From Pseudooceanicola nitratireducens (GTDB lineage: Bacteria > Pseudomonadota > Alphaproteobacteria > Rhodobacterales > Rhodobacteraceae), in NCBI RefSeq assembly GCF_900109195.1, contig NZ_FNZG01000002.1:752191-816190 (forward strand): a DNA stretch of 64,000 nt. The letters are read 5' to 3'. Position 1 is the first letter of the stretch, and each line of letters begins with the position of its first letter. This document shows positions 37,282-40,092 of this stretch, piece by piece. The translations under genes and the position numbers were made by a program. A model generated the notes under the pieces. It was not told the DNA's origin and did not search any database. It saw nothing but the letters and a program-made list of their open reading frames with translations.

Positions 37282-38730
37282 TTATGCCCGGCCCTGCGCC
37301 CGCAGGGGCAGGGCCAGCCCCGTCATATGCGCCGCCTTGGCCAGGTCCTGGGTATAGGCGTCCAGCGCCTCGGCCCGTGCGGTCGCGTCCGCCAGGCGCA
37401 GGATATAGGCCGGGTGCAGGGTCAGCAGAACCGGGCCATGGGCGGTTTCCTCGACCCCGCCGCGCCGTGCCAGAAGGCCGTCTTTCCGGCCGGTCAGGGT
37501 CAGCGCCGCCGTGCCACCCATGGCCAGGATCAGCCGCGGGCGGGTCAGGGCGATCTCATGCTCCAGCCACCATTTGCCATGCGCGATGTCGCCCCTATCG
37601 GGCGGGTGGTGCAGCCGCCGCTTGCCGCGCAGGGTATAGCGGAAGCGCTTGACCGCATTGGTCACGAAGCAGGCCTTGCGCGGCAGGCCGGCGGTCTGGG
37701 CGGCGCTGTCGAACATCTGGCCGGCGGGGCCGACAAAAGGGCGGCCCTGCTGGTCTTCGACATCGCCGGGCTGTTCACCGATCACCATCAGCGGCGCGGG
37801 CTGCGGCCCTTCGCCCAGAATGATGCGGCCATAGCCATTGTCTTGCGTTTCATTGGCCGCAGCGGCGCGGGCGCGCAGGGCATCCATGGTCTGAACGGGC
37901 GCTTCGGGCAGGCTGCGGCGGATGGCAGCGGCACGGACCGGAGGGAGCGAGGGCGCACGGTCGGCCATCTCGCGGGTGCGGGCCTCGGCCTCGGCGATCA
38001 GCCGGGGGATGTGTTTCGCCTCGGGCATGTTGTGCCAGTACTTGCGCGGCATCTCGGATGTCATGGCGCTGATCTTCACCCGCGCGGGGTTGAAGATGTT
38101 GCAGAAATAGGTGCCCCACAGCTCTTCCGTCGCATCCTCGGGCAGGTCGGGACGGGGGGAGCCGGGGGAGAAACGCAGCACACCGTCCTCGAACCGGGCG
38201 GTGACATCAGGGGTGACGATCATCCAGTCCATGTCGGCAAAGCGGCGGGCGAAGAAGGGGGCCGTGGGTTCGACCGTGTGGTGCGTCGGTTCGAACCAGG
38301 CGGCAAAGCGGCGGCGGCCGTCCGTCCCAGGGGCGATGTCGCGAAAGCGCACGAAGGCCTTCATCTTGTGGGCGCAGCGGCGGGTGTTTTTCTCCATCTG
38401 GCGCAGCTGGATCAGGTCGGGATCGGCGGTGTCGCGGATCAGCCCGGGCTGTGATTTCAGCCGCCAGAAGAAGGCATAAAGCCGGGCGAAGCGCTGCGGA
38501 TCGGCGTGCCAGACGACGCGGTCGGCCAGGTCCAGCGCGGCGCGCGGCATGGTCAGCGCGGGGGATGGTGTGGGGGCGGGTGCCTCGGGACTGCCGAACA
38601 GGTCGGTCTGCGCCGGGGCGTCGAAGGCCCACAGCAGATCCTCGGGCGGGGTGCCGAGGCCAAGGTGCCGACGCGCGGCATCACGCCAGGCATGATCCGT
38701 TCCGATCCGGGGCAGGGCGATGGTCTGCAT
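37282..38730 (-). CDS. DUF4130 - UdgX fusion (uracil-DNA glycosylase superfamily)
   Basis: A 482-residue two-domain protein. Residues 1 to about 260 match the DUF4130 'putative DNA metabolism' domain (VWHADPQRFARLYAFFWRL, MEKNTRRCAHKMKAFVRFR, FEPTHHTVEPTAPFF). Residues 290-482 are a uracil-DNA glycosylase of the UdgX type: GEQPGDVED (318-326), GRPFVGPAGQMFD, VTNAVKRFRY, then the R-loop RGKRRLHH with His374, and TLHPAYIL at 437. In UdgX the corresponding His attacks the abasic sugar and traps DNA covalently. Translation starts at ATG 38730 behind AGGAG with a 6-nt gap. It lies 66 bp downstream of the radical-SAM gene, to which this domain pair is commonly linked, and should be SOS-induced with it. 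Confidence 0.9.
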   Translation of the reverse strand: MQTIALPRIGTDHAWRDAARRHLGLGTPPEDLLWAFDAPAQTDLFGSPEAPAPTPSPALTMPRAALDLADRVVWHADPQRFARLYAFFWRLKSQPGLIRDTADPDLIQLRQMEKNTRRCAHKMKAFVRFRDIAPGTDGRRRFAAWFEPTHHTVEPTAPFFARRFADMDWMIVTPDVTARFEDGVLRFSPGSPRPDLPEDATEELWGTYFCNIFNPARVKISAMTSEMPRKYWHNMPEAKHIPRLIAEAEARTREMADRAPSLPPVRAAAIRRSLPEAPVQTMDALRARAAAANETQDNGYGRIILGEGPQPAPLMVIGEQPGDVEDQQGRPFVGPAGQMFDSAAQTAGLPRKACFVTNAVKRFRYTLRGKRRLHHPPDRGDIAHGKWWLEHEIALTRPRLILAMGGTAALTLTGRKDGLLARRGGVEETAHGPVLLTLHPAYILRLADATARAEALDAYTQDLAKAAHMTGLALPLRAQGRA

Positions 38731-38744
38731 GGAAAGCTCCTGAT

Positions 38745-38796
38745 CTGCCCCCGAGGGGGCAGAGCCTCCGGCGGGGATATTTTCGGCAAGAGGATG
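38745..38796 (+). repeat. Dispersed repeat, copy C (with hairpin)
   Basis: It begins with a perfect 8-bp inverted repeat, CTGCCCCC-GA-GGGGGCAG (38745-38762). Then come GCCTCCGGCGGGGA, TATTTTC and GGCAAGAGGATG, ending at the base before the stop codon of the radical-SAM gene on the other strand. It is the most complete copy in the window. Confidence 0.8.
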
Positions 38797-40026
38797 TCAG
38801 AAGAGCGAGAGCTGTTCCGGCGGAGGCGCGAAGCGGGCACGCAGGTCGGCGCTGTCGGTGAGGGCCCCGGGCGACCAGTGGCGCAGGGTGATGAAGGGGT
38901 GGGCGTTCTTCAGGTTGGCCCCGGTGCGTTTCAGGTCGTCATAGGCCAGGGTTCGGTGACGGCGCGCGGTCAGGATGCGCTGCACGGTGCGGGTGCCGAA
39001 CCCCGGCACGCGCAGCAGCAGGTCGCGGTCGGCGGTCTGGACCTGAACCGGGAAAAGGTGGCGGTTTGCCAGTGCCCAGGCCAGTTTCGGGTCCAGCTGC
39101 AGGTCGAGGTTGCCATCGGCGCGGGCGGCGGTGATTTCGCCCACGTCGAAGCCGTAGAACCGCATCAGCCAGTCGGCCTGATAAAGCCGGTGTTCACGGA
39201 TCAGCGGCGGCTTGATCAGGGGCAGCATGGCGCTGCTGTCGGGGATCGGAGAGAAGGCCGAGTAATAGACGCGGCGCAGGCCGAAATCACCGTAAAGCCG
39301 GGTGGATTGCGACAGGATCGTGCGGTCGGTCGAGGCATCGGCCCCGACGATCATCTGCGTCGATTGACCCGCAGGTGCGAATTTCGGCGGCCGCTTACCC
39401 GTGTGGGTGCGGTCCTTGCTGGCGGTGCGGCGGGTTTTCACCCGCTGCATGGCGTCGCGGATCGTGGCCGGGGATTTCTCGGGCGCATAGGCGCGCACGG
39501 ATTGTTCGGTCGGCAGTTCGACGTTGATCGACAGCCGGTCGGCATAGAGGCCGGCCTGGTCGATCAGCTCCTGCGCGGCGTCGGGGATGGTCTTGAGGTG
39601 GATGTAGCCCTTGAAGCCATGCTCCTGCCGCAGTTTGCGGGCGATGGTGACCATGTCCTCCATCGTCGCATCCGGAGAGCGGATGATCCCCGAGGAGAGA
39701 AACAGCCCTTCGATATAGTTGCGCCGGTAGAATTCCAGCGTCAGATCGATGACCTCCTGCGGGGTGAAGCGGGCGCGCGGCGTGTTGGAGGATGCGCGGT
39801 TGATGCAATAGGCGCAGTCGTAGATGCAGAAGTTCGTCATCAGGATCTTCAGCAGGGAAATGCAGCGTCCGTCCGGCGCATAGGCATGGCAGATGCCCGA
39901 GCCTTCGGTCGATCCCAGCCCGCCCGAGCGGCTGTCGCGCCGGCTCGTGCCGGAGGACGCGCAGGAGGCATCGTAGCGCGCGGCGTCGGAGAGGATGGCG
40001 AGTTTTTCATCAAGCGTTCTGGGCAT
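38797..40026 (-). CDS. UDG-linked radical SAM protein (putative DNA modification/repair)
   Basis: A 409-residue radical-SAM protein of the family that co-occurs with DUF4130-UDG proteins. The [4Fe-4S] motif CX3CX2C is FCIYDCAYC (Cys67, Cys71, Cys74). The N-terminal SGICHAYAPDGRCISLLKILMTN and FLSSGIIRSPDATMEDMV blocks are family-typical. The C-terminal region carries a helix-hairpin-helix DNA-binding motif (LLLRVPGFGTRTVQRILTARR), supporting action on DNA. The reaction is unknown. A LexA-type box ends three bases upstream of the ATG, and no Shine-Dalgarno sequence is visible, so the mRNA may be leaderless. It is the first gene of a two-gene operon with the DUF4130-UdgX fusion. Confidence 0.9.
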   Translation of the reverse strand: MPRTLDEKLAILSDAARYDASCASSGTSRRDSRSGGLGSTEGSGICHAYAPDGRCISLLKILMTNFCIYDCAYCINRASSNTPRARFTPQEVIDLTLEFYRRNYIEGLFLSSGIIRSPDATMEDMVTIARKLRQEHGFKGYIHLKTIPDAAQELIDQAGLYADRLSINVELPTEQSVRAYAPEKSPATIRDAMQRVKTRRTASKDRTHTGKRPPKFAPAGQSTQMIVGADASTDRTILSQSTRLYGDFGLRRVYYSAFSPIPDSSAMLPLIKPPLIREHRLYQADWLMRFYGFDVGEITAARADGNLDLQLDPKLAWALANRHLFPVQVQTADRDLLLRVPGFGTRTVQRILTARRHRTLAYDDLKRTGANLKNAHPFITLRHWSPGALTDSADLRARFAPPPEQLSLF

Positions 40027-40028
40027 GT

Positions 40029-40043
40029 GTTCATGATATGTTC
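40029..40043 (-). promoter_or_regulatory. LexA (SOS) box upstream of the radical-SAM/UdgX operon
   Basis: GTTC-ATGATAT-GTTC on the plus strand, that is GAAC-N7-GAAC toward the gene. It is a perfect match to the direct-repeat LexA site of alphaproteobacteria (GTTC-N7-GTTC). It lies directly upstream of the start codon at 40026, and a CATATC-like -10 element falls inside it, so LexA binding should block transcription. Confidence 0.85.
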
Positions 40044-40061
40044 ACATGGGCGCAGGCGCAA

Positions 40062-40092
40062 GAAAAGCCCGGGCAAGGCAGTATACCCGGGC
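40062..40092 (-). terminator. Terminator of the MAPEG gene
   Basis: On the minus strand GCCCGGG (40092-40086) pairs with CCCGGGC (40073-40067) around a 12-nt loop, followed by TTTTCTT. It separates the MAPEG gene from the downstream SOS promoter. Confidence 0.85.

Follow-up and report, generated by a model that had tools for sequence, protein, structure and literature searches.

A conserved LexA-type box in front of a radical-SAM/DUF4130-UdgX-like operon of Pseudooceanicola nitratireducens as a candidate SOS operator

A short direct repeat found directly in front of two putative DNA repair genes of Pseudooceanicola nitratireducens raises two questions: whether it is a LexA operator and, if so, which proteins it places under SOS control. 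The DNA analysed, termed here the window, is a stretch of 64,000 nucleotides of contig NZ_FNZG01000002.1. The repeat, GTTCATGATATGTTC, is an exact GTTC-N7-GTTC box on the plus strand at positions 40029-40043, precisely the sequence and the place for which the initial annotation had claimed a LexA-type site. This candidate operator reads GAACATATCATGAAC in the sense of the genes, which lie on the minus strand, and exact boxes are present at related loci. Two bp separate it from the ATG (40026-40024, minus strand) of a gene coding a radical-SAM protein of 409 amino acids (38797-40026, minus strand; TIGR03916, 580.6 bits for a cut-off of 343.5). The CxxxCxxC motif of this protein (C67, C71, C74) is invariant in an alignment of 36 sequences. 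The adjacent gene on the same strand (37282-38730) codes a 482 amino acid protein in which profiles identify a DUF4130 domain (TIGR03915, 186.3 bits) fused to a UdgX-like domain of the UDG family (TIGR03914, 244.3 bits), both over their cut-offs. We take TIGR03916 to be equivalent to COG4277 and assign, as our assumption, the pair COG1573-COG4277 to the genes of this operon.

Two sets of loci provide the comparison. The 80 named loci hold the closest relatives of the radical-SAM gene and are not a random sample because they are the best 80 kept of at least 583 confirmed candidates. The second set derives from an even sample of the phylum, 398 genomes whose choice did not depend on similarity to the window. 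TIGR03916 matches are found in 99 of these genomes; the 84 with a match over the cut-off, including the window's own, were used and the 15 below it were left out. The 84 comprise 55 genomes of the same class (nine family labels), taken as Alphaproteobacteria as judged from the named relatives, and 29 genomes from other classes (eight family labels). In 161 of the 164 loci of the two sets the radical-SAM gene is followed, on the same strand, by a relative of the second gene.

The gap of 66 bp between the two window genes carries an interspersed 18-mer repeat, CCTCCGGCGGGGATATTT (38765-38782, plus strand). The genome contains 21 exact copies of this repeat and no copy of the reversed pattern; the exact 18-mer is absent from the other 163 loci scanned. 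The presence in the gap of a repeat found at 21 places of the genome suggests that the box could drive the radical-SAM gene alone, with the DUF4130-UdgX gene expressed separately owing to the intervening sequence. This arrangement is improbable: the gap features no terminator-like or promoter-like pattern, its fold is unremarkable (z -1.35, 18/200 shuffles being as good), and the two genes overlap or are at most 10 nt apart in 126 of the 157 loci measured, a set that includes the window's own with its 66 nt. A two-gene operon behind the box remains the preferred reading.

Conservation of the box in relatives had been named beforehand as one part of the test of the LexA reading, and it is found both in the named loci and in the sampled genomes of the same class. 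The named loci were scanned from 250 bp upstream to 30 bp downstream of the start of the match, and an exact GTTC-N7-GTTC precedes the radical-SAM gene in 79 of the 80. The sole exception, L055, has a one-base variant that reads GAACATTACCTGAAT. The 60-bp upstream windows of the named loci hold 80 sites for 0.08 expected, the expectation being derived from the rest of those loci (11 sites in 565 kb). In the phylum sample, a fixed span of 150 bp contains the exact GTTC-N7-GTTC (alpha box) in 55/55 genomes of the same class and CTGT-N8-ACAG (gamma box) in 0/55.

The inverse distribution is observed in the 29 genomes from other classes: the alpha box is found upstream of the radical-SAM gene in none of them and the exact gamma box in 19. 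Five more, all labelled g114, carry CTGT-N8-CCAG, a one-base variant read by eye, bringing to 24/29 the loci with the gamma box or such a variant at the corresponding place. The difference between the class and the others has Fisher values of 3e-23 for the alpha box and 6e-12 for the gamma box, not corrected for kinship; the counts are not independent because the genomes are related. The genes lexA and recA of G261 and G344, the two gamma-box genomes checked, all carry CTGT-N8-ACAG. These box types, together with those of lexA and recA, suggest that the operator tracks the clade's own LexA in most sampled groups, though not in all of them. The LexA match of G074 is weak and C-terminal (62.8 bits for a cut-off of 110.95), and that of G360 is just below the cut-off (99.6 against 110.95 bits); the upstream region of G360 has a site similar but not identical to the lexA box of that genome, according to a weak reading. 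In the three g129 genomes the box at lexA is of a different type, TTAGTAGTAATACTA, and the radical-SAM gene is preceded by nothing like it, nor by any LexA box. The link between LexA and the operon is thus not universal.

Two further observations concern these groups. The three g129 loci (L148, L149 and L153) share, in front of the radical-SAM gene, a conserved inverted repeat around TCTCATCCAATGAGA, perhaps the site of another regulator. The top-scoring TIGR03916 protein of the sample is coded at L111 in G074, a genome with no LexA over the cut-off, where neither a DUF4130-UdgX relative nearby nor any UdgX match over the cut-off genome-wide is found.

Genes of reference were scanned in 30 of the 55 same-class genomes, covering all nine families, up to 200 bp upstream of the match. 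The alpha box is found in front of lexA in 30/30, of recA in 22/30 and of rpsD in 0/30, and all 30 genomes are among the 55/55 that carry the box within the 150-bp span at the radical-SAM gene. Measured against these two SOS genes, the pair of radical-SAM and DUF4130 genes therefore has a box no less often than lexA and more often than recA. The genome of P. nitratireducens itself codes a LexA of 187.6 bits (cut-off 110.95), with the box GAACACGTATAGAAC at -53 of lexA and GAACAAGAGGCGAAC at -112 of recA. The introduction of PMC8565304, in its available text, gives the alphaproteobacterial LexA box as GTTC-N7-GTTC; half-sites and spacing are identical at the window box and at the lexA and recA boxes of the same genome. 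The evidence from sequence (an exact box, its position, its conservation, its replacement by the gamma type elsewhere, and boxed lexA and recA in the same genome) makes it very probable that the box serves LexA as the operator of an SOS operon. By this evidence it is a real operator, very strongly conserved, of a DNA repair operon of a known SOS kind.

The upstream terminator proposed by the initial annotation is present as a pattern. A terminator-like hairpin, recognized by pattern and fold (40067-40092, minus strand), follows the upstream MAPEG gene (PF01124). Its stem extends from 40092 to 40067 on the minus strand, is followed by TTTTCTT, and folds with -20.9 kcal/mol (z -2.42; as good in 3/200 shuffles). 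The T tract extends into the predicted -35 element TTGCGC (40056-40061, minus strand), which is weak relative to the sigma-70 consensus and lies 17 bp from a predicted -10 element, TATCAT (40033-40038, minus strand), situated within the operator spacer. Since this -10 would lie within the box and the ATG is 2 nt past it, transcription is predicted from the -10 spacing to start at the A of the ATG (40026, minus strand), yielding a leaderless mRNA. A generic sigma-70 promoter scan detects nothing at the operon, and the proposed -10 and -35 elements thus rest on comparison across relatives.

For this purpose 134 boxes, from 79 named and 55 sampled loci, were compared, their half-sites being exact by construction of the search. 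The window orientation is found in 117 of them, in 116 distinct surroundings, and the opposite one in 17. The spacer is variable (56 distinct boxes among the 117) with a bias to ATATnnT. A TAnnnT at the -10 position is found in 57/116 operon boxes, differently from the lexA (1/28) and recA (0/15) boxes in the same orientation. Upstream of the box, CTTG or TTGM starts at -19, -18, -17 and -16 in 19, 38, 15 and 20 cases, respectively, and at most 7 times at any other position; note that one sequence may count at two neighbouring positions. The first in-frame start codon is 2 nt past the box in 31 of the 79 named loci. Of the 8 boxes of family f8, 7 point the other way and sit ~70 bp farther upstream, so the layout with the box on the -10 is common and not universal. 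Both the spacer bias and the -35-like signal 16-19 bp upstream could also mean that the conserved site is mainly a promoter, namely its -10 region, with the GTTC halves kept for another reason or by another regulator. Such a reading is very unlikely, for the halves are exact in 79/80 and 55/55 loci while the spacer varies, 17/134 boxes are oriented oppositely, and 24/29 sites of other classes are CTGT-N8-ACAG or its variant, the type carried by lexA and recA in both genomes checked. The site is best regarded as an operator superimposed on a promoter, in which LexA would block the -10 element and the start site of a presumably leaderless mRNA.

Judgement of the box from its pattern alone was dropped, as GTTC-N7-GTTC has a genome-wide frequency not far above background (136 copies, the reversed pattern having 78). 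The window has 3 copies for a shuffled mean of 1.69, with 3 or more in 24/100 shuffles, and the remaining two are both within long ORFs, which we take to be LamB/YcsF-like and dnaE-like. What sets the box beyond chance is its place, since ~0.0015 copies are expected by our arithmetic within 60 bp of one given start at the genome density, together with its conservation. Although the 136 genome copies against 78 and a window count within the shuffled range would suit a chance occurrence of an eight-base pattern, a box upstream of the gene in 79/80 and 55/55 related loci, against 0/30 for rpsD, leaves this explanation practically without credit.

The locus had been described as a radical-SAM/UdgX operon. 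The radical-SAM part of this description holds, while UdgX is not the core of the second protein: its constant domain is DUF4130, to which UdgX is often fused. The fusion is found in 49/55 same-class genomes, in 73/80 named loci (two of these, L040 and L061, are doubtful, with only gaps at the UdgX sites in a later alignment) and in 11/29 genomes of other classes. DUF4130 without a UdgX match is found in 2/55, 7/80 and 17/29, respectively. Of the other same-class cases, one is truncated by the end of its contig, one was scored as separate and two have no nearby partner; one of the 29 other-class genomes has no partner. In G229 and G241 the first scan gave no partner, and a UdgX match over the cut-off is located further downstream in both; in G241 an ORF that reads as a DUF4130-UdgX fusion lies ~2.8 kb downstream. 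A whole-genome search for UdgX covered the 19 sampled genomes with DUF4130 only and G074, the seven named ones being excluded: no match is over the cut-off in the 20 genomes, of which 11 have weaker UDG-family matches. All 20 invariant columns of a 34-sequence alignment are within DUF4130, a confinement due to some aligned rows having no UdgX. This domain survey indicates that the constant pair behind the LexA box appears to be radical-SAM and DUF4130, with UdgX an optional domain.

Two peculiarities of the partner gene were observed. At L304 (1900-4142, in G241) two ORFs, seemingly unrelated to repair, are intercalated between the radical-SAM and the DUF4130-UdgX-like genes. In L092 and L102 (Gluconacetobacter and Acetobacter) the UdgX loop is altered to TERIQ and GRRIP and the cross-linking His is absent; their UdgX part is possibly a decaying domain.

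Modelled with a pLDDT of 88.9, the second protein matches the fold of Mycobacterium smegmatis UdgX. The PDB matches listed, the best 50 of 53 at E 0.001, are all UDG-type folds, and the viral matches of low E, among those listed, are UDG-type, polymerase or unnamed; DUF4130 is therefore left without a function based on fold. The M. smegmatis UdgX (PDB 6ajr, 6ail and others) is the best match in both fold and sequence, with 34-37% identity to the window domain over ~190 columns. The two have in common the GEQPG motif, at residue 318 of the window protein, and the KRRxH loop, KRRLH at residues 370-374. They differ in that the window domain is fused behind DUF4130 and has all four presumed Fe-S positions substituted.

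The 4Fe-4S ligand columns of UdgX are presumed, also from conservation in the family, to be Cys, Cys, His and Cys, where the window protein has A, T, R and G. In 133 fused proteins aligned, the four ligands are kept in 118. All four are lost in six proteins (the window's and those of L126, L031, L032, L034 and L041), and another six have lost the three Cys and kept the His (L164, L166, L167, L173, L177 and L187). L033 lacks two, and two rows have gaps at these columns. The E, N, H and H positions engaged in catalysis and cross-linking are kept in all twelve proteins. In a midpoint-rooted FastTree tree both sets of six form clades of their own (support 1.0 each), and the ligands seem accordingly to have been lost at least twice. 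The substitution of the ligand positions is the reason for naming the domain UdgX-like; from its sequence it is apparently an Fe-S-free variant. Deprived of its presumed ligands, it might also be non-working. UdgX holds a 4Fe-4S cluster according to the available text of PMC10359453. The survey points to natural UdgX-like proteins seemingly without such a cluster, of possible use because UdgX serves as a uracil probe.

The model of the radical-SAM protein (pLDDT 83.7) has its best fold matches among radical-SAM barrels, HydE being the first (TM 0.41 by query length). Profile searches against solved structures give weak matches, the best being helix-hairpin-helix proteins (ComEA-related, E 0.021; RuvA, E 0.025), and the enzyme has no convincing sequence relative among them. 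Identification as the spore photoproduct lyase SplB was rejected: SplB is absent from the family matches at E 0.001 and from the 50 fold matches listed. DUF4130 is placed in SOS gene neighbourhoods in PMC3765255; the radical-SAM protein of the window differs from that system, since it belongs to TIGR03916 and its listed folds are HydE-type. The available text of PMC3765255 does not mention a LexA box with DUF4130.

The assignment of the pair to the DNA damage response is supported by the conservation of the box and is right as read from the sequences, yet it is not new. PMC8565304, in its available text, infers the COG1573-COG4277 operon within the SOS network of Bacteroidetes and states that earlier reports had placed this glycosylase system under SOS regulation in Alphaproteobacteria and Verrucomicrobia. 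That operon resembles the one found here in joining a COG4277 radical-SAM gene with a UDG-type gene under LexA-type control. Beyond that account, the present analysis identifies the partner as DUF4130, joined to UdgX in some loci and not in others, and follows the box through a phylum sample, in which most genomes outside the class have a gamma-type box. Gamma-type boxes, a DUF4130 core and Fe-S loss are not mentioned in the accessible parts of the open-access literature searched. The operon is not named in the main text, as available, of an in silico LexA study of Rhodobacterales (Dinoroseobacter; PMC6473078). A Streptomyces study lists, in its accessible part, a LexA-bound "Radical SAM protein" (vnz_31145). 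The text available from the Caulobacter SOS literature mentions neither radical SAM nor uracil; a Caulobacter repair inventory lists four COG1573 glycosylase genes, with no LexA link for them in the part consulted. Term counts in two UdgX papers, PMC10359453 among them, give no occurrence of "SOS", "radical SAM" or "operon".

The following mode of control can be proposed. By occupying GAAC-N7-GAAC, LexA would mask both the -10 element and the start of transcription, excluding RNA polymerase. Upon DNA damage, RecA stimulates the self-cleavage of LexA; this would free the operon promoter, and a probably leaderless mRNA would be translated into the radical-SAM and the DUF4130-UdgX proteins. LexA binding, repression, leaderless start and co-transcription are what we infer for this locus. 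More speculatively, radical-SAM and DUF4130 would form a core repair or modification machine, and the UdgX add-on would excise uracil and cap the abasic site covalently, sparing chromosome breaks during the SOS response. A protective role of UdgX is proposed in the available text of PMC10359453.

In its widest form, a proposal in which we place as much doubt as trust, the TIGR03916 radical-SAM protein and DUF4130 would be an ancient two-protein machine by which Proteobacteria deal with DNA damage, under LexA control and with no need of UdgX. The latter would have been fused to DUF4130 afterwards as an accessory and, in the window's clade, have become an Fe-S-free cross-linking uracil trap. The operator would have been rewritten when the LexA motif of a clade changed, and merged with the -10 element of a leaderless promoter in many Alphaproteobacteria. 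The survey separates the constant partner, DUF4130, from the optional one, UdgX, so that biochemistry can begin with the right pair.
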